Origin: a virus
IMG/VR virus record: IMGVR_UViG_3300022924_000004
Location: 1 to 49,064 of that record
Length of the DNA stretch: 49,064 nucleotides
Reading direction: 5' to 3' (one strand)
Position 1 is the first letter of the stretch. Every line of letters starts with the position of its first letter. The translations under genes were made by a program, and so were the position numbers. This document shows, one piece after another, positions 1,040-47,666 of this stretch. The notes under the pieces are model-generated. The model had not been told where the DNA came from. It saw only the letters and a list, made by a program, of their open reading frames with translations, and searched no databases.

Positions 1040-4000
1040 CTATTCACCCTTAATACGATCATCGATCCAGTCAGAGATACCGTTACCTCCGGTAACTGTT
1101 CGGCTTAGGGTATTAACCGTACCTACACCCGGGATCAGGTTTAGTACAGTCCTACTGTTTACACCACCGTACCTGTTGATAGGGTTAAGTGGAGTGTTAA
1201 ATCCGGCGCGAGTCTTAGAGTTTTCATTCCAAGGGTTAACAAGACTAGCTCCCGTAGGGTCTGTCTTACTAATTGATCCACCAACCGTAGGCGCATCGGC
1301 ATCCGGATTGATTGTACTAGCGATACCGTCCCATGCGAATTGGATAGCTGCTGTAGCGGCCCACATTCCTGCGAGTGCTGCTGTACGTTTAGTCGCGCGA
1401 AGGTTAGATAGATTCTTAATAGTATCATCGATAGTCTTCACATTGTCTTCTACTAACTTAACATGATCTCGGATTACGTCAAGTGGTGGAGCGTCAGCTG
1501 GAGCTTTTCCATCTTTAACTGCCTTCTCGACATCTTTAAGTCCTTTGAGATATGCCTTGTATTCACCGCGCATATTGGCGATAGGTGTTGCTCGTGGATC
1601 TCCACGCTGTAATACGTCAAGTGCTCGAGCGTCTTTGATCTGAATCGTATCTCGTACGAAGTTTGATATACCAAGTGGGAAGCGCATGAACATTGTCAAT
1701 GCACGTTTAATGGCTGAACTATCGCGAAGGAACTCTGGACGAGCCAATGAGTTAGCACCAAATGCGGTGTTATTCACTTGGATGTTACCAGATCGCTCGG
1801 CTAATGCCAGTGCTTCTGGATCCTTAAGTGCAAGTTTAATTGCTTGTGATTGTGATTTACCGGCTGCAATAGCTTCAGTGTAAGCCTTACTCTGAGAAAG
1901 TCCCTGAGCAAATGCTTGGCGGAATGGACCTTCGACTGAGGTTTGTTCACCCCAGCGGTTAAGATCGTACTTCCTGAATGCGTCACCAACCTTAGATCCG
2001 CGTAGTGCTTCTCCGGCTTCGGTTAATGCATCAGCTTCACCACCTTGAATGTCGCCAGAAACAGTTTTGTCTCCGAAGCTTGCTTTGCTGTCTACAACTT
2101 TCAAATCTTCTGGATCGAAGGCTTTAGCTAGTGCACGACCATCTGATGAAATATCACCGGCTGCGAGTAGCTTCTGAGAGAGTGCAAATGCTGCGTTCTT
2201 AGGGTTGTTCCATAGGAAGGCGCTATAAACGTTGTTCTGTAATCCCTTGATCCATTTATCAGCTGTTGAGCTAGATCCCTGAGAGATACCGTTTGCAAGC
2301 ATAGTATTAAGGTATTGGATACCATCATTGAATTGGCTTGTGTTCGCGCGTACATGGGCTGGAACACTAGAAAGTGCATCAGAAAACTCGTCAAGTACTG
2401 GAGTAAAGGCAATGTGGTTGATCATTCCATCGACGTATCGAGGGAGGACTTCAAGAATGTTGTTGTTCGTAAGCTCTGGTTTTTCATCAAGCTTGCGCTC
2501 CATAGCGTTTTGTGACATAACACGAGTTTTCTTGTCAACCAATCCTTCCGCTAGGTAGCTAGGACTCTCAGAATAGTCTTTTAACATATTCCAAGGTGAG
2601 TAGTTATCGCGTACTGGCATACCAGCATCGATCATTCTCTGTTTAATATCATCAAATACAGTAACAACGCGATCATAGATCTCGCGAGTCTGTGGATCAG
2701 TAATGTATTTTGCGACATTTTCTCGGTCTTCAAGTGCTCTAACGATTTGTGCACCAGTATTAATACGAGCCGTCTCGCTCTTACCAGCTACGTCTTTAGA
2801 TAACTTGACAATCTCTCGCATCGGTGTACGGAGAGAGGCTTTCATATCAGCCTTAGTCTTACTACCGCGAATAAGTGACTGTGCTGTACGAGCACCGGCT
2901 TCACCTAATGTGCGAGTTGCATAGCCAATAGAATCGCTTAGGTAGCGACCAATAGATTTTGTAAGGTTTTCTGAGGCGTCATTAGAAATCTTACCTTGAG
3001 TAAGGTAGGTAACTGCTTTAGCGACTTCTGGATCTAGTTCATTAAGATTAAGATCTTTGACTAACTGTGGATCGAGATCATTACCGATAACGGCAAGTTC
3101 TTGTGGTTTAGCACGACGAGCTGCTTTGTCTTTAATAATAGCTTCAGCTGCTTCATCAGCACCACGAAGATCCATAGAGACTTCACCGAGATCAGCTTGA
3201 GGAGTAACCTCTGCTGCCATAACAGTATTACGAGGAGCCTGAGCTGGTTGTCCGTATACACCGCCGTCTGTGAATCCACGACTAAGCATATCTTCTGGAC
3301 TACGGGCTGTAACGTGAGTAACTTCCCCGTTAACACTTCGTCCAGCAAGCGCAGTTCCATCTCGGTTGTTATCAATGGCGTCAACAATATCGTCTCGTTG
3401 TCCCTCTGGGATACGATAGAAAGTCTTGTCTCCGGTAGATGGATTCACAACCTGTACAACTTCAGTAGGGCTTGTTGTAACATCTGCTGAAATAACAGGT
3501 GACTCTACGCCTACTGATTCCTGCATTTGTTTAGCGCGTAGATATTCTGCTGGGTTAGATGATGTTGCAGCTTCTTCTAATGCGGCCATAGGTGCATTCT
3601 GAGCAGGAGTTATGGTGTTAGGATTTGTAATTTCCGGTTCTGCACGAGTAAATGGATTAGTACTCGTTTCAACAGGTTTAGGTTGAACTTCTGTTTTCCC
3701 ACTCTTTGTGATTTTTGGTCCTTCAATAAGTGTATCTGCGAACTTAGTAGCTGCGTCCTCGTCCATTGAAAGTAATCGAGCGGATAGATTAGGGTTCTGA
3801 GTAATTGCATCGTCGATCTTAGCCTGTGCACTAGGTTCAAGACGTTGGATAGCGCGGAAGAATGGTAGTTCTGCTACCTTAATATCATCAAGTGGATCTT
3901 TAGGACGGTTACGACTAGCAGCAAGCGCACTAGACATCTTACCGAGTATACCACCAAGAGCACCACCAACAGCGGCGCCCGTAACAACTCCACCTACGAT

Positions 4001-4750
4001 ATCACCAGCAGTAGTATCTGCACCGTTAGCCTCAACAGCTCCACCGGCTCCGTATCCAGCACCAAGTACTGCACCCGATGCAAGTCCTTGTTTACCGTTG
4101 CGAGGGTTGAGTACGATATCACGAGCAGCAGATAATGAATCTTTTGCTTTGTCAACAGCTTGAGCAACTGGACGGCCCTCACGAGCAATCTTTGCAATGT
4201 CAAGTCCTGTTTCAGCAACCTTGCCACCGGCACGAGTACCAGCCGCAATAGCGCTACCAGCACCGGCTGTAGCTACGTCAATACCTACCTGAGCAGCAGC
4301 TCCGGCATATTTAGTAGGATCTGTAACGTCCATAATACGGTCGTTTTCAGCTTTAGATTCACCTTCGATCTTTTCGATCTGAGCTTTAATGCTGTCATAT
4401 AATGATTGTTCTTCAGGAGTGAAGTTATTAACACCCGGTTTCATAGGGCCTTTAACTGCGCCCTTTTGTTCGAGGGTATCTTTAGTAGCCCGTAGAGTTT
4501 TAAGTAACTCACGGGTTGAGTCGTCTTTCTTTTCTTGAGACTTAAAAGTAACGCTGTCGAGTGCTCGAGCGTTTGCTTCTGAAATTCGTAGATATGGATC
4601 GACTACTGCCTTAGCTAAACTCTTAGTAGCTCCCGGAATACTAAATTGACTGTTAGGATCGGTTGCTTGACCCCACCAACTTGAGTGGTAGAGGTCTTTC
4701 TGAGTTTGAGCTGTTTTGGCTTGTTCGTCTTCTCGGTTATAGAAAGGCAT
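1040..4750 (-). CDS. Large internal virion / DNA-ejection protein (1236 aa)
   Basis: This is the largest gene of the phage. The N-terminal third contains alanine/glycine-rich amphipathic stretches (about residues 150-185 and 220-285) that resemble membrane-inserting segments of short-tailed phage ejection proteins. The central and C-terminal parts are long mixed helices, with a further hydrophobic stretch near residues 1115-1130. It is the last and largest of three consecutive genes downstream of the tail genes, as in T7 gp14-gp15-gp16 and P22 gp7-gp20-gp16. By position and size it should be packaged inside the capsid and leave before the DNA to extend the conduit through the envelope. No lytic transglycosylase motif is recognised. 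Confidence 0.65.
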   Translation of the reverse strand: MPFYNREDEQAKTAQTQKDLYHSSWWGQATDPNSQFSIPGATKSLAKAVVDPYLRISEANARALDSVTFKSQEKKDDSTRELLKTLRATKDTLEQKGAVKGPMKPGVNNFTPEEQSLYDSIKAQIEKIEGESKAENDRIMDVTDPTKYAGAAAQVGIDVATAGAGSAIAAGTRAGGKVAETGLDIAKIAREGRPVAQAVDKAKDSLSAARDIVLNPRNGKQGLASGAVLGAGYGAGGAVEANGADTTAGDIVGGVVTGAAVGGALGGILGKMSSALAASRNRPKDPLDDIKVAELPFFRAIQRLEPSAQAKIDDAITQNPNLSARLLSMDEDAATKFADTLIEGPKITKSGKTEVQPKPVETSTNPFTRAEPEITNPNTITPAQNAPMAALEEAATSSNPAEYLRAKQMQESVGVESPVISADVTTSPTEVVQVVNPSTGDKTFYRIPEGQRDDIVDAIDNNRDGTALAGRSVNGEVTHVTARSPEDMLSRGFTDGGVYGQPAQAPRNTVMAAEVTPQADLGEVSMDLRGADEAAEAIIKDKAARRAKPQELAVIGNDLDPQLVKDLNLNELDPEVAKAVTYLTQGKISNDASENLTKSIGRYLSDSIGYATRTLGEAGARTAQSLIRGSKTKADMKASLRTPMREIVKLSKDVAGKSETARINTGAQIVRALEDRENVAKYITDPQTREIYDRVVTVFDDIKQRMIDAGMPVRDNYSPWNMLKDYSESPSYLAEGLVDKKTRVMSQNAMERKLDEKPELTNNNILEVLPRYVDGMINHIAFTPVLDEFSDALSSVPAHVRANTSQFNDGIQYLNTMLANGISQGSSSTADKWIKGLQNNVYSAFLWNNPKNAAFALSQKLLAAGDISSDGRALAKAFDPEDLKVVDSKASFGDKTVSGDIQGGEADALTEAGEALRGSKVGDAFRKYDLNRWGEQTSVEGPFRQAFAQGLSQSKAYTEAIAAGKSQSQAIKLALKDPEALALAERSGNIQVNNTAFGANSLARPEFLRDSSAIKRALTMFMRFPLGISNFVRDTIQIKDARALDVLQRGDPRATPIANMRGEYKAYLKGLKDVEKAVKDGKAPADAPPLDVIRDHVKLVEDNVKTIDDTIKNLSNLRATKRTAALAGMWAATAAIQFAWDGIASTINPDADAPTVGGSISKTDPTGASLVNPWNENSKTRAGFNTPLNPINRYGGVNSRTVLNLIPGVGTVNTLSRTVTGGNGISDWIDDRIKGE

Positions 4751-4758
4751 ATTACCTC

Positions 4759-5445
4759 CTACCGAAGATTAAGATTAGGTGCAACTGTTCGCGTTGCTTG
4801 TGAATTAGCTTGTGCTTGAGAGAACCTGTCTGGGTATGCTGAACGGAATCGTTGTACATAACTAGAGTAAGTTTTGATGTCGTTATCGTCGAGGTACTTT
4901 TTAAGTCCCGGACGATCTTCATAAAACTTATCAAGTTCCTTCTTGTTACCAGTAGCCATGATGCGACCAAGTTGAATCGTGTCGTCATAGTCTTTAGTAA
5001 AGTCAACATCACTAGGATCTGCTGAACCCTTGAGAGCTTCTGAGATACTGATGTTATTAGCACGAGCATAATCGTTAACACTAATAGGCTTACCAGCACC
5101 ATCGGTGAAGGTGTAACCACCAGCGTCATTGAGAACTCGTTGGAAGTTTTTAGGGTCTGACTTAGCGCGTTCAATATCACGAACTCGCATTTGCTCTTTA
5201 AGATTGATTTCAGCTTCAGCTTCAGCAGCACGACGGCTTGCTTCTTGCTGATCTGCAACTGCACCGGCATTACCGGCTCCAGCTACACCAGCAGTATTTG
5301 CACCAGCTGAGATAAACTTAAGATTAGCAAGGTTTTGAAGGTTGCCAATTTGACCGGCATTTGCAGCCGTCTGTGCTGGCGAAGCACCAAAGTTAGCTCT
5401 GGTGTTCGCTGCTTGAATTATTGCGTCGATGAAAGGTTGTTCCAT
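4759..5445 (-). CDS. Internal virion / ejection-associated protein (228 aa)
   Basis: The ATG at 5445 overlaps the stop of the upstream gene (TAATG), which fits translational coupling better than the upstream in-frame ATG at 5517. The protein is alanine-, asparagine- and glutamine-rich at the N-terminus, with a probable coiled coil in the middle (about residues 70-105). The C-terminal half is polar and contains repeated YSSY/YDDT-like segments. It lies between two other candidate ejection proteins, in the position of T7 gp15 or P22 gp20. There is no recognisable catalytic motif. Confidence 0.55.
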   Translation of the reverse strand: MEQPFIDAIIQAANTRANFGASPAQTAANAGQIGNLQNLANLKFISAGANTAGVAGAGNAGAVADQQEASRRAAEAEAEINLKEQMRVRDIERAKSDPKNFQRVLNDAGGYTFTDGAGKPISVNDYARANNISISEALKGSADPSDVDFTKDYDDTIQLGRIMATGNKKELDKFYEDRPGLKKYLDDNDIKTYSSYVQRFRSAYPDRFSQAQANSQATRTVAPNLNLR

Positions 5446-25296: not shown

Positions 25297-25454
25297 TATT
25301 CGATTTCCTCTGGTTCTACCTGTTCGCCACGAAAGAGCGAGTCCATAAGTTCAATATAAAGATTCTCTAATAGGATTTCGCCGTCGGCACTCCTGTAGAT
25401 TTCAAGCGATTTAGATACAGATCTAATCGTCCACAATTTTAATAGTAATTTCAT
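25296..25454 (-). CDS. Hypothetical small protein, first gene of the late block (52 aa)
   Basis: ATG at 25454 is preceded by AGAAAGG at good spacing, and the stop overlaps the next start (TAATG). The predicted product starts MKLLLKLWTIRSVSKSLEIY and ends in an acidic stretch. It is too short for family assignment. It is the first coding region after the structured late leader. Confidence 0.55.
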   Translation of the reverse strand: MKLLLKLWTIRSVSKSLEIYRSADGEILLENLYIELMDSLFRGEQVEPEEIE

Positions 25455-25826
25455 TTCATACCTTTCTGTTATTTAATGTTATAATAACAAATGGTATATA
25501 CAAAAACAATGGTCTAGTGGCATCGCTGAAGCAAGTGACTATTTTTAGGTATTCTAAAAAGGCTCCCCTTTTCTAAGCGCTCCGCTTCAGGCAACCTATA
25601 ACGTCGGCAGTTCAAGAAATATGCATTGGATCTTGATACTGACACGAATGAATCTGATATTGAGTTCTAATCTTTATTAGCTAATCATACCATCTTATTT
25701 GTTAATGTACAGGAAATCGATATTTCCGTCACTGCATCTCATTATAGGCGAGATCACCCGTTATAAGCTTGTTAAACTAAGTATCTTAACGTCTCTTAGT
25801 AGCTGCTTCTGCTTTGCCTAGACGTA
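25455..25826 (-). ncRNA. Structured ~370-nt leader of the late transcript with a 5' pseudoknot
   Basis: The region between the promoter at 25833-25861 and the first late gene has no credible gene but many complementary segments. The first bases of the expected RNA pair ACGTCT (25825-25820) with AGACGT (25794-25789). The segment ACTAAG (25800-25795) pairs with CTTAGT (25781-25776), which together form an H-type pseudoknot directly at the 5' end. Further hairpins are GGAAAT/ATTTCC around 25712-25727, and CTGAAGC/GCTTCAG (25526-25532 with 25584-25590). The last encloses two mutually exclusive A/T-rich hairpins (25542-25560 and 25557-25572). A regulatory leader or a processed RNA are both possible. 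Confidence 0.55.
25481..25509 (-). promoter_or_regulatory. Possible secondary late promoter
   Basis: On the minus strand TTGTTT and TATTAT are spaced by 17 bases, immediately before the gene starting at 25454. It lacks the TGTGC element of the other promoters, so it is a weaker candidate. Confidence 0.3.
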
Positions 25827-25832
25827 CTTACC

Positions 25833-25861
25833 ACTGTAGCACACATGGTTTTAAATGTCAA
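25833..25861 (-). promoter_or_regulatory. Late-block promoter, sigma70 type with extended -10
   Basis: On the minus strand -35 TTGACA (25861-25856) and -10 TACAGT (25838-25833) are separated by exactly 17 bases, with TGTGC in front of the -10. The predicted start near 25826 coincides with the first base of the 5' pseudoknot of the leader. It is the same promoter type as the early promoters, so late genes probably use unmodified host polymerase. Confidence 0.8.
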
Positions 25862-25862
25862 G

Positions 25863-26485
25863 TCTTTTTATGTACGCAGTTTATGGTGAAATATTTTTTT
25901 ATGGGGTACTAGGCGGAATATTTTTTATATGGAAGAACGAAGGGTTGCACTGATATCGCCACCTCAGTCAAATAAAATCTTCCCTTTTGGGTGCTATAGG
26001 GGTCTGATGATCGCGCCACAATGTCATAAAGCTTTAAACGTTTAACAATTAAAACTTAAAATTAAAACAATTAAACAAATAAACATTAAACAATAACAGT
26101 AAGGGGGTGAGTGTACCCCTGTTACGCTACATTGTGCGACATTAAGGGTATTGGCAATAGATGGGTTAGTACTCAACTATGATAAGTAACGGGCCTTATA
26201 CGGGCTTAGGTGAGGTCGTTTTTAGCCGGTAAGTGTTGAATATGGGTTAATTGGCCTAGAATGAGAGGTTTGATCAATCAAAAACGTAACACACGGCAAC
26301 GATACGGCACGGGTAAGCCTGAATAGTAGCAATGAAAGACATATAATAATAGCCTGTAATAAGCATAATAACAATACATTATAATAATAAGACTACCTGT
26401 ACTATATCCTATGTAATACTATCATACGTTACCTATAGAATAATGACACTAATAGCCCTTTCTTTTTCTCGCGCGAGGTTTATTA
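25863..26485. other. Divergent AT-rich intergenic region, candidate replication origin
   Basis: No convincing gene lies here. The region has two similar iteron-like segments (GGTGAAATATTTTTTT at 25885 and GGCGGAATATTTTTTAT at 25912). There is also an A/T-rich tract at 26025-26100 flanked by an inverted repeat: CACAATGT at 26017-26024 and ACATTGTG at 26129-26136. A hairpin GGGGT/ACCCC lies at 26104-26119. A 75-bp segment at 26160-26230 recurs at 26906-26975. AT-rich DNA between divergent early and late operons is a common place for a phage origin, but no initiator-binding site could be proved. Confidence 0.4.
26160..26230 (+). repeat. Direct repeat, copy 1
   Basis: GATGGGTTAGTAC, a 21-base spacer, then CCTTATACGG, then CTTAG and GTCGTTTTT recur in the same order and spacing at 26906-26975. 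Coding function is not apparent. Confidence 0.6.
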
Positions 26486-26514
26486 TTGCTTATGCTTGCA
26501 ACCTGTGCTATAAT
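26486..26514 (+). promoter_or_regulatory. Early promoter 1, TTGCTT-17-TATAAT
   Basis: The -35 TTGCTT (26486-26491) and a perfect -10 TATAAT (26509-26514) have a 17-base spacer, with TGTGC extending the -10. The start is expected near 26521, about 20 bases before the short gene at 26541, which has an AAAGG ribosome-binding site. Confidence 0.85.
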
Positions 26515-26540
26515 AAGAATGTAATAAAGAAAGGTATAAT

Positions 26541-26594
26541 ATGCAATTCATTAAACAAGGGCTAAGTATTGAACTACAACGGATTAAACAGTAA
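26541..26594 (+). CDS. Leader microprotein (17 aa)
   Basis: ATG at 26541 follows AAAGG at good distance. The 17-residue product MQFIKQGLSIELQRIKQ ends with TAATG overlapping the next start. It may be a real microprotein or a leader peptide that couples translation of the next gene. Confidence 0.4.
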   Translation: MQFIKQGLSIELQRIKQ

Positions 26595-26764
26595 TGTTTG
26601 GTAAGTCTAATAAAGAATTAAAAGTTGAATGGATCGAAGATCTAGAGCCTCAGAGTTGCACTTGCAAGGGCTTTACAGAACTGTTCCGTAAACTTGAATC
26701 ACTACAATGGAAACTATTAAACGGTGTAGACATATCACAATTAAGCATTAAAGAGGTTGTTTAA
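26594..26764 (+). CDS. Small early protein with CxC motif (56 aa)
   Basis: The start overlaps the previous stop and the stop overlaps the next start. The product begins MFGKSNKELKVEWIEDLEP, contains SCTCKGFTELF and ends with a helical part. No family is recognised. Its place directly after the strongest early promoter suggests immediate-early expression. Confidence 0.5.
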   Translation: MFGKSNKELKVEWIEDLEPQSCTCKGFTELFRKLESLQWKLLNGVDISQLSIKEVV

Positions 26765-26880
26765 TGAATAGGCTTATGCTGTTTATAACTCTATTCTTAC
26801 GCCAAGGCTTTATTATTGGCCTTACATTGTTTGGGGTTTGGATCGGATACAGTATCACCCTTATTATTGACCGTTTGTAA
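26764..26880 (+). CDS. Single-pass membrane microprotein (38 aa)
   Basis: The product is hydrophobic over almost its whole length (LMLFITLFLRQGFIIGLTLF, then GVWIGYSITLII), with positive residues near the N-terminus and at the end. It is translationally coupled to the gene before it and followed by a terminator. A membrane role such as exclusion or host takeover is possible, but nothing specific can be read. Confidence 0.5.
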   Translation: MNRLMLFITLFLRQGFIIGLTLFGVWIGYSITLIIDRL

Positions 26881-26900
26881 GCCTCTGTAATAGCACTATA

Positions 26901-26931
26901 AAAAAGATGGGTTAGTACCCGTCTTTTTGTT
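26901..26931 (+). terminator. Intrinsic terminator of the first early unit
   Basis: AAAAAGATGGG and CCCGTCTTTTT pair around the loop TTAGTA, followed by GTTTTC. The stem has one G-T pair. The hairpin overlaps the start of direct-repeat copy 2, so part of the repeated element may serve termination here. Confidence 0.75.
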
Positions 26932-26975
26932 TTCATTGACCTTATACGGCCTTAGAATGGGTCGTTTTTTAATGC
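26906..26975 (+). repeat. Direct repeat, copy 2
   Basis: Shares GATGGGTTAGTAC, CCTTATACGG, CTTAG and GTCGTTTTTT with copy 1 at 26160-26230 at identical spacing, with divergence in the spacers. The copies are 746 bases apart. Confidence 0.6.
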
Positions 26976-27062
26976 CTTAAAATACACTAACAAGGGTGAG
27001 AGTATAAAGCTTGAGTTTTCCACAAGCTAAAGCACTATTATAAAAAACATACATAAACGGTA

Positions 27063-27091
27063 TTGCTTTTTTATTCCCCTTGTGCTATTAT
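27063..27091 (+). promoter_or_regulatory. Early promoter 2, TTGCTT-17-TATTAT
   Basis: The -35 TTGCTT (27063-27068) and -10 TATTAT (27086-27091) have a 17-base spacer, with TGTGC before the -10. It would drive the operon beginning at 27175 and possibly through 30612. Confidence 0.8.
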
Positions 27092-27174
27092 TAAAGAGTA
27101 AGCAAAAGCATTAAACCACCACAAGTTTAGGCTTACAAATAAACATAACCACCACAAAAAGAAAAGAGGGTACT

Positions 27175-27288
27175 ATGAAAAAGAAGATTAACGTTAAGTA
27201 TATTAATACTAAAGCTAAGTCTCGCGTGATCGTTGTTCCACCTGTTGAACTTGATCCCGTAACTATGACACTAATCAACTTTAGTTAG
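27175..27288 (+). CDS. Small basic early protein (37 aa)
   Basis: ATG follows AAAAGAGGG at proper spacing. The product MKKKINVKYINTKAKSRVIV is basic at the N-terminus and ends with a hydrophobic/polar part. No family is recognised. Confidence 0.5.
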   Translation: MKKKINVKYINTKAKSRVIVVPPVELDPVTMTLINFS

Positions 27289-27307
27289 TCGAAAGAATAA
27301 AACAAAA

Positions 27308-27445
27308 ATGCAAGTAAAATACTTTAATCGCGCCACTAAGCGATACCACAATAAGAAGAGCCTACAAAATAAGTGCATAGAGTTCTTAAAAGTCCTTGGA
27401 TTTTTAACCTTTATCGTACTAATGGCTTGGCAACCTAATTTCTAA
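27308..27445 (+). CDS. Small membrane protein (45 aa)
   Basis: A basic N-terminal half (NRATKRYHNKKSLQNK) is followed by one transmembrane helix (FLKVLGFLTFIVLMAW). No clear ribosome-binding site precedes the start, so confidence is moderate. A topology with the basic part in the cytoplasm is expected. Confidence 0.4.
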   Translation: MQVKYFNRATKRYHNKKSLQNKCIEFLKVLGFLTFIVLMAWQPNF

Positions 27446-27468
27446 TATCTGAGGGGGTATAAAAAGAA

Positions 27469-33135: not shown

Positions 33136-34149
33136 ATGTACGATGTTGTTATTGTAGGATCAGGGCCAGCAGGACTATCCGCCGCTGTTAATGCAGCGAG
33201 TGAAGGATTGAAAACCTTAGTAATGGATATGTCTACTGAGTTTGGTGGACAAGCAGGAACATCTACGATGATTGAAAACTATGCCGGATTCCCAGACGGT
33301 GTAACAGGTAAAGAGTTGGCGCAACGTATGCTAGATCAGACCTATAAGTTTGATGTTGAGTACCAAGCGCCATCTCGTGCCTGTGGTTTGAGCCGAGAAG
33401 ACGATCGTATTGTGGTACTAGATGATTCTGGTGATCACATTGAAACTCGATCTGTCATTCTCGCGATGGGTGTGCAATACCGTAGGCTTAAGATTCCTAA
33501 TATAACTAAGTTTCTTGGCCGTGGTATTGTATACGGATCACCGGTACTTGGTAAAAAGTATGTCGGAAAGAACTTTGTAGTCGTTGGTGGTGCTAACTCC
33601 GCCGGTCAAGCAGCCATGCATCTATCACAAATCCCCGGATCTACTGTTAGAATGGTAGTTCGTGGCGAGAGTATAGGTGATAGGATGAGTAATTATCTCG
33701 TTGAACGACTTGAGATGGCTGATAATGTAACTATTCATTTAAACAGTGAAATTTCAAACGTAGACGGGGGCAATGATTTACAAAATGTCTGGATTAAAGA
33801 TAAAACATTCACAGAAGGTTTCGATGTCGATCATATTTTCATCCTTATTGGCGCTGTACCATTGACAAGTTGGATGAAAGATATTTTAGAACTAGACAAA
33901 TCTGGTTTTATATTGACTGGTAGGGATCTTAAAGCGACTGATGTACGAGAGTTTAAAGATACTTGTGGACGTAAGCCGTTTGATCACGAAACTTCCATGC
34001 GAGGTGTGTTCGCAGCAGGAGATATACGGGCTAAATCAGTAAAAAGAGTAGCCAGTGCAGTAGGCGAGGGCGCCGCGACAGTACCGGAAGTACACCAAAT
34101 AGTACAAATAGCAAAAGATAGAGAGGCATATGAAAACACCAAAAATTGA
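33136..34149 (+). CDS. Thioredoxin-reductase-like FAD/NAD(P) oxidoreductase without CxxC (337 aa)
   Basis: The FAD-binding GSGPAG (residues 8-13), GGQAGTSTMIENYAGFPDG (37-55), the second nucleotide motif GGANSAGQA (151-159) and the C-terminal GVFAAGD are all present. The redox pair expected near residue 134 in thioredoxin reductase (CATC) is replaced by VYGSPVL. It resembles the FAD-dependent, thioredoxin-reductase-like group without the active-site disulfide. It is not a classical thioredoxin reductase, so the electron acceptor is unknown. CGGGGG ribosome-binding site precedes the ATG. Confidence 0.8.
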   Translation: MYDVVIVGSGPAGLSAAVNAASEGLKTLVMDMSTEFGGQAGTSTMIENYAGFPDGVTGKELAQRMLDQTYKFDVEYQAPSRACGLSREDDRIVVLDDSGDHIETRSVILAMGVQYRRLKIPNITKFLGRGIVYGSPVLGKKYVGKNFVVVGGANSAGQAAMHLSQIPGSTVRMVVRGESIGDRMSNYLVERLEMADNVTIHLNSEISNVDGGNDLQNVWIKDKTFTEGFDVDHIFILIGAVPLTSWMKDILELDKSGFILTGRDLKATDVREFKDTCGRKPFDHETSMRGVFAAGDIRAKSVKRVASAVGEGAATVPEVHQIVQIAKDREAYENTKN

Positions 34150-34713: not shown

Positions 34714-34722
34714 AAAATAGTA

Positions 34723-34751
34723 TTGACTTTTACAACCAAGTGTGCTATATT
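34723..34751 (+). promoter_or_regulatory. Promoter of the large non-coding RNA
   Basis: TTGACT (34723-34728) and TATATT (34746-34751) have 17 bases between, with TGTGC in front of the -10. The start is predicted at about 34757, which is exactly the first base of the first helix of the RNA. Confidence 0.85.
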
Positions 34752-34756
34752 GAATA

Positions 34757-35614
34757 CAGATAAGGACAGCGCTGGACAAGTTACTACAAGTAACAGTCAG
34801 AAGACCGTTCAGCACCTTATCTGTCACGGATGCTCGAAGAGAAATCTAGAGAGGACGACCCAACAGTAGGCGGTTTTAGCACTCAGGTCTGTCTTTTGGA
34901 CACATCCGTACATTAAAAATTAAGTGTAAAGCATCGGTGATAAGTGTCTGATGTCTGCGGCAGTGGACTATAGTGACTAAACCAAGAGTAAATAGAAGTG
35001 CCGGGTCTAGGAGGGTTGCAAACAGTACTAGAAACGTCGCGCGGTGGAAATCTTCTATACTTGTTATCGATGCTGTGCACTTAAGAAACTTAACAATTCG
35101 GCGTTATACGATTACAGAGGGGGTGGTGTACACAGCGGCGTCTCGAAACGTCAGTAGGGGTAGCTCTCCAAACCCAAAGTAGGACGCTTATCGACCCCCC
35201 GTGTGATCGTATAACAACTGTATTATTTAATCTGTTCGTGGGGACTTAGCTTGACGAGTTCATGGCATCAGTTACCGCTGATGAGTCGAGCGACCTCCTT
35301 ACCCCATGAGCGGTTTAGATAATATAGTATTGATAATAATTCCGGGGGGATGCACGGCAACCCTTTGACCCGCATACGGATGGCCGTCTTTATGCATAGT
35401 GGCAGAGGAATGTAGACTGTTTTCGACTGGATCAGGACATGGAAGAGTGCATCGCTTACATGATTCAATTCCAGCGTCAGACACCCCCCTCGAAGTATTA
35501 TCAAGATTTGTACATTTTCACAGGTTCCCCCGTGCAAGATCGCCGGAGTAATTACCACAGATCGTCCTGACTGCCGTTTGATCACTGGATCAGTCGAAAA
35601 TGGGGTCTGTGAAA
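34757..35614 (+). ncRNA. Large structured non-coding RNA (~860 nt), GOLLD/ROOL-like in style
   Basis: A 930-base gap without credible gene starts with a consensus promoter and is full of long complementary segments. The strongest are CAGATAAGG (34757-34765) with CCTTATCTG (34815-34823); ACGGATG (34826-34832) with CATCCGT (34903-34909); TTAAGTG..AGCATCG (34920-34936) with CGATGCT..CACTTAA (35068-35084), 14 pairs around a 3x3 loop; and ATAGAAG (34992-34998) with CTTCTAT (35052-35058). Next come GTTATACGAT (35103-35112) with ATCGTATAAC (35206-35215), enclosing GGGGGT/ACCCCC and GCGTC/GACGC; a nested column CGTGGGG/CCCCATG, GCTTGAC/GTCGAGC and CATCAG/CTGATG within 35237-35308; TGCACGG (35351-35357) with CCGTGCA (35530-35536); and TTTCACAG..CCCC (35516-35530) with GGGG.CTGTGAAA (35602-35614). 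No tRNA is found inside. Homology to a known RNA class was not tested. Confidence 0.8.
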
Positions 35615-35642
35615 GTGTATAAGGAAATAAAGAAAGGGTAGC

Positions 35643-35957
35643 ATGGGATCACAAACAATACGAGTACCGATAACCGTTAAGATTTTTAACGCCAAAAACG
35701 ATGAGATGATATTCAATGCCTCTTCGTCAGTAAAATCGAAAATTAGAAATCTGACCTCTGAAGCTCTCGCTCAGAATGAAAATCTGGATGTAGTTGGTAC
35801 TGCTAAAGTAACTTACAGTCGAGAACAGGATTCGTTCAATAGCTTTGATTTTAAAACGATCGAAGAATTTGATGAGAAGATGGGACCGATCTTAGAGATT
35901 GGGCTACTACGGGAACTTAAAGCATCAGGGATGCTAGAAAAGAAGTATTTAGGATAA
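35643..35957 (+). CDS. Early hypothetical protein (104 aa)
   Basis: AGAAAGGGTAGC precedes the ATG; the same leader end precedes the gene at 37395, so a common 5' UTR end is used. The protein has a beta first half (TIRVPITVKIFNAKNDEMIF) and a helical second half (EEFDEKMGPILEIGLLRELK). It may be co-transcribed with the upstream large RNA, since no terminator is seen between. Function unknown. Confidence 0.55.
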   Translation: MGSQTIRVPITVKIFNAKNDEMIFNASSSVKSKIRNLTSEALAQNENLDVVGTAKVTYSREQDSFNSFDFKTIEEFDEKMGPILEIGLLRELKASGMLEKKYLG

Positions 35958-40922: not shown

Positions 40923-41105
40923 ATGGAATTTGGAATCATTTGGACAGTTGTATACCTCATAGCTAATGGACTTATACTTGTATTTGGACCATTAATGATC
41001 GGTCAAGAACGAAAACCTCGCTTCTATACCGTAGGATGGTACATCTCTGTAGCTATTGAAATTATTGGAACCAGCATTGCGCTGATATGGGCGTACTTAG
41101 TATGA
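40923..41105 (+). CDS. Two-helix membrane protein (60 aa)
   Basis: AGGTAG precedes the ATG. Two hydrophobic segments (about residues 5-22 and 40-58) are separated by a basic loop (GQERKPRFY). The stop overlaps the start of the RNA-ligase gene (ATGA). Function unknown. Confidence 0.5.
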   Translation: MEFGIIWTVVYLIANGLILVFGPLMIGQERKPRFYTVGWYISVAIEIIGTSIALIWAYLV

Positions 41106-42010
41106 GTACCGGACCATTCCCTAAGATTCTCCATGTAGGTCATAAGGATATCTCAACATTGTTTGATGATGTCGTGGAGATCACAGAAAAAGTAGACGGA
41201 TCTCAACTGGGATTCGGCAAAGTAAACGGAAGACTATTTGTTCGATCGAAGGGACGCGAGTTAGATCTCGATAACCCTGATGGAATGTTTATGAAAGCGG
41301 TAGAATATGTTAGAAGTATTGAAGACAGGCTCCCAGATAACTATACGTTCTACGGGGAATACCTCCAGAAACCGAAGCATAATACACTGGCCTATGACCG
41401 AGTACCAACTAACGGTATTGCACTTTTTGGAGTCTATAACTACGAAACAAAAGAGTTTTATGATTATGAAACCATACAGGTATGGGCGAACAAACTTGAG
41501 GTTGATGCAGTCCCAGTCATTAAACTCGGAATCAGCAACCCAGAAGAAGTACTAGAATTTGTAAAGAATAGGGTAAGTTACCTTGGTGGACAGAACATTG
41601 AAGGCGTGGTAGTTAAAGCGTACAAGCCTTGGCTATTCCTTAACTCAATTCCACTATCAGTAATGAGTGGTAAATATGTTACAGAAGAATTCAAAGAAGT
41701 CCACGGTGCAAACTGGAAAGCGGAGAATACCAATAAGGGTCAACTCGCAGTCGCAATCGGTAAGTATAAAAGTGTCGCGCGGTGGAACAAAGCAGTACAA
41801 CATTTACGAGATGCTGGCAATCTTTCCGGATCGCCCAAGGATATCGGACTTCTTATAAAAGAAGTGAGACGAGATGTTGAAGAAGAAGAGAAGGAAAACA
41901 TTAAAGATATTCTATGGAAGATCTATGGTGATAAGTTCCTTCACGAAGCCGGAAGTGGCTTACCTCAATGGTATAAAGAAGAGTTAGTGAAAGGAAATAT
42001 AGACGTATGA
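41102..42010 (+). CDS. RNA ligase, Rnl2-like (302 aa)
   Basis: ATG 41102 overlaps the preceding stop. The nucleotidyl-transferase motifs are visible: EKVDGSQLGFG with K30 as the AMP-accepting lysine, YGEYL (motif III) near residue 86, and a late IEGVVVKAY (motif IV) near residue 170 followed by KYVTEEFKE (motif V). The ligase seals RNA nicks, and together with the downstream kinase-phosphatase it would repair RNA cleaved by host anticodon nucleases. The C-terminal about 100 residues are helical. Confidence 0.8.
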   Translation: MSTGPFPKILHVGHKDISTLFDDVVEITEKVDGSQLGFGKVNGRLFVRSKGRELDLDNPDGMFMKAVEYVRSIEDRLPDNYTFYGEYLQKPKHNTLAYDRVPTNGIALFGVYNYETKEFYDYETIQVWANKLEVDAVPVIKLGISNPEEVLEFVKNRVSYLGGQNIEGVVVKAYKPWLFLNSIPLSVMSGKYVTEEFKEVHGANWKAENTNKGQLAVAIGKYKSVARWNKAVQHLRDAGNLSGSPKDIGLLIKEVRRDVEEEEKENIKDILWKIYGDKFLHEAGSGLPQWYKEELVKGNIDV

Positions 42011-42358: not shown

Positions 42359-42510
42359 TGCCTAAGCTAGTATTTGAATTTAAAACACAAGAAGATCTCG
42401 ATAACTGGTATGGATTTTATTCCGACGGTGGTGGAGAAGACGGTATCTATGAAGGCTTCGCTCAAGAAGGCTGGGATTACCCTGAAATCAAAGTAACACA
42501 GGAGTCATAA
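42358..42510 (+). CDS. Early hypothetical protein (50 aa)
   Basis: The product begins MPKLVFEFKTQEDLDNWYGF, then a DGGGEDG turn, and ends in a strand. Start and stop overlap neighbours by one base. Function unknown. Confidence 0.5.
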   Translation: MPKLVFEFKTQEDLDNWYGFYSDGGGEDGIYEGFAQEGWDYPEIKVTQES

Positions 42511-43400
42511 TGCCTAAAGTATTAATCCTACGAGGAATCCAAGGATCCGGCAAGTCAACCTACGCTAAGAAACTTGTTGATAAAGGCGGATGGATCAGAG
42601 TAAATAAAGATGATTTACGAGCAATGTTATTCAACAGTAAGTTCAATGGCAAGAAAGAGAAAGCCATCCTTACAATTAGGGACCGTATTATTACTAACGG
42701 CCTTCGCTACGGTTATAATGTTGTGGTTGACGATACCAACCTTAATCCTACTCATATTGACAGGATTGGTGAAGTCGTAGAAAACCAGCAATACATCGAT
42801 AACGATGGAGCTGAAGAAGACAAGAAAGTAACATACGACATTGAGATTAAAGACTTTGAAGTAACACTTGATGAAGCAATTAAGAATGATCTTAAGCGCG
42901 AGAAGTCTGTTGGTGAAACTGTTATCCGTGACACATGGAATAAGTGGATCCGACCAACATTAACACTAGATTTAACACCGAAGGACGAATTAGAAAGTGC
43001 AGCAATTTGGGATCTTGATGGTACACTGGCACTACTTAATGGCCGTGATCCATATGACGCTTCTGAAGCTGAGTATGACTTGCCAAATTACCCAGTTATC
43101 GACGCTTTGCACCGCTACCAAGAAGATGGTGGTAAAGTTATCATCACTTCGGGAAGAAGCGATGAATATGAAAAACAAACGTTCGCGTGGTTAGAGAAGA
43201 ATAATATTAAGCCTGACGTTATCATTATGCGTAAGCAAGGTGATACTCGTAAAGACTACGATGTTAAAAAAGAAATGTTCATGGATCACATCTATGGAAA
43301 GTTCAATGTAGAATTCGTATTCGATGATCGACAACGTGTAGTTGACGGATGGCGCGATCTTGGACTCACAGTATTCCAAGTAGCAGATGGTAACTTCTAA
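42510..43400 (+). CDS. Polynucleotide kinase-phosphatase, T4 Pnkp-like (296 aa)
   Basis: The N-terminal P-loop kinase has GIQGSGKST (residues 10-17) and VVVDDTN (71-77). The C-terminal HAD phosphatase has DLDGT (168-172), SGR (214-216) and a late FDDRQRVVDGWRDLGL close to the T4 Pnkp pattern. The enzyme phosphorylates 5'-OH ends and removes 3'-phosphates, giving ends the RNA ligase at 41102-42010 can seal. The two enzymes form an RNA-repair system. Confidence 0.9.
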   Translation: MPKVLILRGIQGSGKSTYAKKLVDKGGWIRVNKDDLRAMLFNSKFNGKKEKAILTIRDRIITNGLRYGYNVVVDDTNLNPTHIDRIGEVVENQQYIDNDGAEEDKKVTYDIEIKDFEVTLDEAIKNDLKREKSVGETVIRDTWNKWIRPTLTLDLTPKDELESAAIWDLDGTLALLNGRDPYDASEAEYDLPNYPVIDALHRYQEDGGKVIITSGRSDEYEKQTFAWLEKNNIKPDVIIMRKQGDTRKDYDVKKEMFMDHIYGKFNVEFVFDDRQRVVDGWRDLGLTVFQVADGNF

Positions 43401-46036: not shown

Positions 46037-46061
46037 TAAAAAGCAACCTCTTGTGGGTTGC
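46034..46061 (-). terminator. Minus-strand terminator-like hairpin
   Basis: On the minus strand GCAACC/GGTTGC with a seven-base loop is followed by TTTTTATTA. On the plus strand no U-run follows. It is therefore oriented to end a transcript coming from the 46062-46259 region on the minus strand. Confidence 0.6.
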
Positions 46062-46259
46062 GAAGAGTAAAAGGCTTGAACGTGCAGACATCGCCCGTGA
46101 GCGATGGCCCCCGTTGGCTGGATTAAACGTAATTAGCCTCACGGCGTAGATATTAATCCACTCTTCGCAGTTCGCAAGGACTGTCCCTTATACCCCCTTT
46201 CGATGGTCTGATAACGAGGAGTTATCAGCGCAAGCTCGGCAAGCACTCCGAGGCCATCA
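46034..46259 (-). ncRNA. Structured RNA element, probably minus strand (~225 nt)
   Basis: The region has no good gene. It contains GCGAAGAGT (46060-46068) with ACTCTTCGC (46160-46168); TGGATTAA (46119-46126) with TTAATCCA (46153-46160); CATCGC/GCGATG (46089-46106); and a closed three-way junction at 46202-46258 with stem GATGGTC/GGCCATC and hairpins CTGATAAC/GTTATCAG and CTCGG/CCGAG. Read on the minus strand, one loop becomes a GTGA (GNRA) tetraloop at 46136-46145, and the RNA ends with the terminator at 46034-46061. No clear minus promoter was found, so plus-strand leader function is the alternative. Confidence 0.45.
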
Positions 46260-46280
46260 CCTAATTAATGAATGGAATTT

Positions 46281-47523: not shown

Positions 47524-47552
47524 TTGACAAATTGAATATCGCCTGATATAGT
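47524..47552 (+). promoter_or_regulatory. Promoter of a small RNA
   Basis: TTGACA (47524-47529) and TATAGT (47547-47552) have a 17-base spacer, with TG at the extended -10 position. No gene follows; a structured sequence and a terminator do. Confidence 0.85.
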
Positions 47553-47557
47553 GAGTG

Positions 47558-47666
47558 GTGCACTTAATTAGGAGATTAAGCTAACTGAAATGCCTCGATA
47601 GGTTAGCGGCTCTTAGAACATAGAGGCAACAAAAAAGACCCCCGTAATGGAGGTCTTTTTATTTTT
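47558..47666 (+). ncRNA. Small RNA with hairpin, H-type pseudoknot and terminator (~105 nt)
   Basis: The transcript from the promoter at 47524-47552 contains a hairpin CTTAAT (47563-47568) / ATTAAG (47575-47580) with the loop TAGGAG. A classical pseudoknot follows: stem 1 GCTAAC (47580-47585) / GTTAGC (47602-47607) and stem 2 TGCCTC (47591-47596) / GAGGCA (47623-47628), with loops of 5, 5 and 15 bases. It ends with the terminator at 47631-47666. No start codon with good context is present. Pseudoknot RNAs of this size can be riboswitches or free small RNAs; since promoter and terminator enclose only this sequence, an independent RNA is preferred. Confidence 0.7.
47631..47666. terminator. Bidirectional intrinsic terminator
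   Basis: AAAAAGACC and GGTCTTTTT pair around a CCCGTAATGG loop; U-runs follow on both strands. It ends the small RNA and early transcripts from the left and the late lysis transcript from the right. Confidence 0.85.

Follow-up and report, generated by a model that had tools for sequence, protein, structure and literature searches.

A Mosaic Array of Structured RNA Modules behind a Phage Promoter

The locus, its predicted transcript and its fold

The stretch of DNA analysed here, referred to as the window, comprises 49,064 nucleotides of the IMG/VR virus record IMGVR_UViG_3300022924_000004, whose terminase places the virus in distant relationship to the Zobellviridae (~25 % identity). On the plus strand, a gap at positions 34714–35642 separates a gene of 160 aa from a gene of 104 aa, neither with an assigned function. 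The initial annotation, made from the sequence alone, had described a large ornate RNA with its own promoter in this gap, and that part of its interpretation is borne out by folding energy, covariation and non-coding character. Positions 34757–35628 are predicted to give a non-coding, highly structured plus-strand RNA behind a phage promoter, which we describe as an array of seven modules, M1–M7 (Table 1).

The promoter motif pointed out beforehand is present, recurs ahead of other genes of the window genome at 37340 and 45399, and is also found at the equivalent place in the related genomes G001, G002 and G003 introduced below. As anticipated, the predicted starts at 34757–34758 fall on the first bases of a 9-bp helix formed by CAGATAAGG and CCTTATCTG (34757–34765 with 34815–34823). 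The array ends 14–20 nt upstream of a start codon, and as no terminator was found between the array and the downstream genes at the window locus, the RNA may extend into the mRNA of those genes. Each array has near its 3' end a short AUAAGG (window 35622–35627, L005 ~4913–4918, L030 ~3220–3226) that matches the beginning of M1 (GAUAAGG); it may represent a remnant of a leader or a duplicated target site.

Table 1. Positions of the promoter, the RNA modules, the following gene and the second RNA locus in the window.
Feature	Position	Strand	Description	Remark
Promoter	34723–34751	+	TTGACT-N17-TATATT with extended TGTGC	sequence motif
M1	34757–34823	+	5' hairpin of invariant stem AGAUAAGG/CCUUAUCU, bulge of 5 nt and a second stem that covaries	z −5.1
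M2 (candidate)	34826–34909	+	closed by ACGGAUG/CAUCCGU	weak, z −1.5
M3	34920–35084	+	basal helix of 25 pairs plus inner helices	homologous to a G002 module
M4	35103–35215	+	closed by GUUAUACGAU../..GAUCGUAUAAC	z −4.4
M5	35220–35325	+	column of stacked helices	z −6.0
M6	35328–35508	+	basal stem UUGAUAAUA/UAUUAUCAA, GGGGGG/CCCCCC, two inner arms	homologous to a G001 module
M7	35507–35628	+	long basal helix; loop GGAGUAAUUACC is conserved and contains the palindrome GUAAUUAC	homologous to a G002 module
Gene following the array	35643–35957	+	104 aa	conserved in relatives, there with small ORFs between
Second structured RNA locus	46037–46258	+	frame stem, GNRA hairpin, further hairpin	

Folding of the 858-nt RNA yields −298.2 kcal/mol compared to −246.6 ± 7.4 kcal/mol for shuffled sequences (z −6.9), and the fold is a row of separate closed domains. 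When the modules were also folded singly, six of the seven reached z ≤ −3.4, with control coding windows averaging −0.4. The successive domains proposed at first sight are thus recovered as closed modules, except that M2 remains weak. A sliding scan with 160-nt windows did not single out the array within the genome, so that the case rests on comparison and not on folding energy alone.

Two ORFs inside the locus, of 69 aa on the plus and 105 aa on the minus strand, would speak for an overlooked protein gene or for ordinary intergenic DNA free of constraint, an explanation we regard as hardly credible in view of the fold and of covariation exceeding slid controls. G001 lacks a counterpart of the 105-aa ORF, and a 61-aa antisense similarity falls within the DNA alignment of M6, which itself lacks codon periodicity. 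Substitutions in M3, M6 and M7 show no codon phase (p 0.7–0.95), whereas those in the adjacent gene do (p 7e-7), and a coding sequence was rejected on these grounds. A conserved protein across the region, named in the initial annotation as incompatible with its RNA, was accordingly not found.

Relatives and the mosaic composition of the array

Four related phage records with terminases 86–89 % identical are present in IMG/VR, two of which cover the whole locus. G001 (IMGVR_UViG_3300023314_000007) was found via the upstream protein, and a terminase search delivered G002 (IMGVR_UViG_3300022924_000005), G003 (3300022751_000157) and G004 (3300023106_000088). The contig of G003 ends inside the array, where it is near-identical to G002, and G004 is a fragment without the locus. 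Both G001 and G002 feature promoter and RNA array at the same syntenic place as the window, consisting of M1, one other module and M6 in G001, and of M1, two other modules, M3 and M7 in G002. Local alignments with shuffle controls gave z ~27–33 for M6 between window and G001, z ~21–24 for M7 and ~11–15 for M3 between window and G002, and z 5–8 for M1 across all genomes. The ~70-nt M1 is the sole module common to all relatives covering the locus; homologues of M2, M4 and M5 were not found in the relatives compared. Nothing else is clearly common to the G001 and G002 arrays in these alignments, with one module of each (G1x and G2y) sharing motifs at weak similarity (z ~3–3.6).

Covariation in homologues, which the initial annotation had put forward as a test of its helices, was observed within the shared modules. 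All 52 pairs of M3 are formed in both sequences and 14 of them carry two-sided changes (slid controls 0–3), as do 14 of 56 pairs in M6 (slid controls 0–4) and 3 of 29 in M7. There are three distinct sequences only, so that M3, M6 and M7 were each compared in one genome pair; as the counts derive from sequence pairs and from structures obtained from those same sequences, the slid controls weigh more than the percentages. The basal helix of M3 pairs 34920–34944 with 35060–35084 and incorporates, in register, the helix noted earlier at 34920–34936/35068–35084, just as the nested helix column noted at 35237–35308 sits within M5. The outer stem of M1 does not vary in sequence, and the second stem appears rebuilt by compensation in three genomes, as read from the sequences rather than counted by a tool.

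The initial annotation had further favoured a single giant RNA, in length and style akin to GOLLD and ROOL. Such a molecule would represent a new class with one fold, multimer formation and optional peripheral domains in the relatives, and it draws support from its length, helix density and self-paired 5' end, from a GNRA hairpin at the second locus described below, and from the M7 loop, whose conserved palindrome GUAAUUAC could kiss. A probable pseudoknot in M6 between AUGCAC (35350–35355) and GUGCAU (35447–35452) also speaks for it; it is the one well-placed case among the at least two crossing pairings proposed, and with both strands identical in the relative, covariation does not test it. 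Nevertheless, the relatives share the 70-nt 5' hairpin alone and otherwise carry differing module subsets, G001 and G002 having nothing else clearly significant in common at the array locus, which makes a mosaic array likelier than one giant RNA. Taken together with the missing Rfam match, we consider the giant RNA unlikely.

On the 3' side of the array, the relatives differ by small inserted ORFs ahead of the homologue of the 104-aa gene. These insertions at the array's place mark an accessory locus, and the differing array subsets together with the differing ORFs identify the position as an accessory hot spot behind a promoter. An identical 11-nt linker between modules, ACTTAACAATT, occurs in two arrays (window ~35088–35098, L005 ~4728–4738) and is a possible recombination point.

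The same surroundings bear on a cis-acting 5' leader that would regulate the downstream operon through its stability or translation, in the manner of a riboswitch, an attenuator or an RNase barrier. The short distance to the start codon in the window and the type of promoter, which drives other phage genes as well, are compatible with this explanation, and the absence of a terminator fits it equally. We nonetheless rate it as rather improbable, because the gene directly 3' of the array differs per relative, the modules change independently, and seven successive domains over 860 nt go far beyond the needs of known leaders.

A second RNA locus and known RNA families

A further structured gap of the window lies ahead of the DNA polymerase exonuclease gene (window 46037–46271, L027 3570–3862, L017 7061–7698 on the minus strand; the gap in G001 spans ~640 nt). 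Here, a frame stem GCGAAGAG/CUCUUCGC at 46060–46067/46161–46168 is followed by a GNRA hairpin, and the inserts held between GCGAAGAG and CUCUUCGC differ in length and sequence between window and G001. A covariance model of M3 matched the second locus of G002 (L027:3687–3845, E ~2e-6), and an M3-type basal stem is present at this locus in both G001 and G002. Across the four copies of this stem 11 of 25 pairs covary (slid controls 0–3), and the common G-U (11 cells) but rare A-C combinations (2 cells) point to a plus-strand RNA. In G002 the stem encloses a tRNA-like cloverleaf whose acceptor-like stem measures 7 bp and which has a D-like arm and a T-arm GGUUCGAGUCC, though with a third arm of 3 bp only, no CCA and no proper anticodon arm; the content in G001 is unlike it. 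Frames that are conserved while their contents change stand out as the most unusual feature we found. A homology of M6 to the tRNA-like insert of G002, considered for a common 10-mer and 9-mer, was rejected since alignment gives it no support.

The strand asymmetry also bears on a DNA-level element, such as an origin, a packaging site or a recombination hot spot with the hairpins acting as cruciforms or single-stranded DNA. The hypervariable position, the long palindromic stems and the AUAAGG repeated at both array ends would suit such an element, which is however very unlikely given compensatory changes that run via G-U on the plus strand and a promoter that points straight into the array.

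Large phage RNAs of unknown function have so far been treated as single ornate molecules. GOLLD resembles the array in being phage-encoded, longer than 800 nt, rich in helices, variable in its domains and orphan in function; ROOL is likewise a large ornate phage RNA with pseudoknots, the array's being the probable one in M6. GOLLD carries a universally conserved 3' region, and ROOL is often located near tRNA islands and adopts one conserved multimeric fold (PMC12286853). By contrast, the array shares its 5' hairpin only, its 3' module is M7 in window and G002 and M6 in G001, and the tRNA genes often found near GOLLD are absent from its vicinity. GOLLD assembles into a homo-multimeric and ROOL into a homo-octameric nanocage. 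No Rfam family matched the locus at gathering threshold, nor was anything credible seen up to E ≤ 10; this includes the GOLLD, ROOL, OLE and HEARO models, the last two describing large structured bacterial ncRNAs and thereby comparable in kind. The suspected likeness to GOLLD and ROOL hence holds for size and style, membership is not supported, and the suggestion that the RNA may be a new class stands.

The statement that no tRNA lies inside was confirmed by ARAGORN, and a phage tRNA array was rejected, as the sole tRNA-like fold belongs to the second locus of G002. Searches of phage and plasmid records by blastn returned nothing for the locus, its core or the array of G001, named phages contain no relatives of the flanking proteins, and the covariance models found nothing in six distant Zobellviridae genomes. 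Hits from exact-motif scans of viral contigs (L007–L011, L014, L015) were discarded as chance matches, and those from a scan of genome contigs (L033–L035) for their unrelated context.

Possible roles of the modules

Our preferred explanation, to which we assign a probability of about 0.45, is that accessory RNA modules acting in trans form a mosaic array on the leader of an operon. The mosaic array itself is well supported; the function of its modules in trans is what we infer. The array would make up the extended 5' portion of an operon's transcript. Its modules of ~70–190 nt would fold independently, each with a long basal helix closing it, and the 5'-terminal hairpin M1 would presumably protect the transcript and lend it stability. 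Like accessory genes, the modules would be gained, lost and exchanged between related phages as well as between two loci of one genome, and they may be freed by RNase cuts in the A/U-rich linkers, although nothing was found that points to processing between modules. Most likely they would bind or mimic targets of host enzymes, serving as decoys, in counter-defence or in host take-over. Such binding or mimicry would explain the fast module turnover, from which alone the trans function is argued; the turnover, the accessory hot spot and the one tRNA mimic would fit decoys or other RNAs directed against the host. That close relatives differ in their combinations of modules suggests interchangeable RNA genes of a type that has not been described before.

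A bolder version, tentative and in our estimate doubtful, would see RNA accessory arrays as a fast-evolving arsenal of this phage lineage, in which conserved helical frames at two loci have structurally unrelated payloads swapped into them, one of them a tRNA mimic. If true, such arrays would correspond, at the RNA level, to an island of anti-defence genes. Small structured accessory RNAs directed against host defence are known from phage tRNAs and RNA anti-CRISPRs (Racrs) (PMC11555353, PMC10651486). The array would likewise employ small structured RNAs in the place of accessory genes, yet ARAGORN recognises no tRNA in it and Rfam CRISPR-repeat models, as a search for mimics of CRISPR repeats, gave no significant match (best E 4.3, outside the array). 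None of the modules is similar to an RNA known as a decoy or from defence. A search of open-licence papers brought up no mosaic array of phage ncRNAs, which does not prove that there is none.

Comparison of the close relatives shows how the components of a large phage RNA are reshuffled as modules at two loci, with covariation inside the shared modules. Function can hence be tested separately for each module, and the shuffling suggests an evolution of RNA accessory elements in phages that may resemble that of anti-defence proteins.

Elsewhere in the window, PHROG matches identify an RNA ligase and a polynucleotide kinase gene at 41087–42010 and 42510–43400, suggesting RNA repair against tRNA-cutting defences. 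Neither has a clear counterpart in the G001 contig, and they were rejected as partners of the array since G001 carries an array without a clear match to either. At 47524–47665, with equivalents in G001 and G002, a small RNA without above-threshold Rfam match comes with a promoter (TTGACA-17-TATAGT) and a terminator of its own; its sequences point to an H-type pseudoknot in which both helices, in the window GCUAAC/GUUAGC and UGCCUC/GAGGCA, carry compensatory changes. A largely non-coding, A/T-rich stretch of 2.2 kb at 25297–27468 lies between the two divergent gene arms and contains several promoter-like stretches and very small ORFs. The gene at 33136–34149 is assigned to the ribonucleotide reductase large subunit by PHROGs and to a thioredoxin-reductase-like pyridine nucleotide-disulphide oxidoreductase by Pfam.
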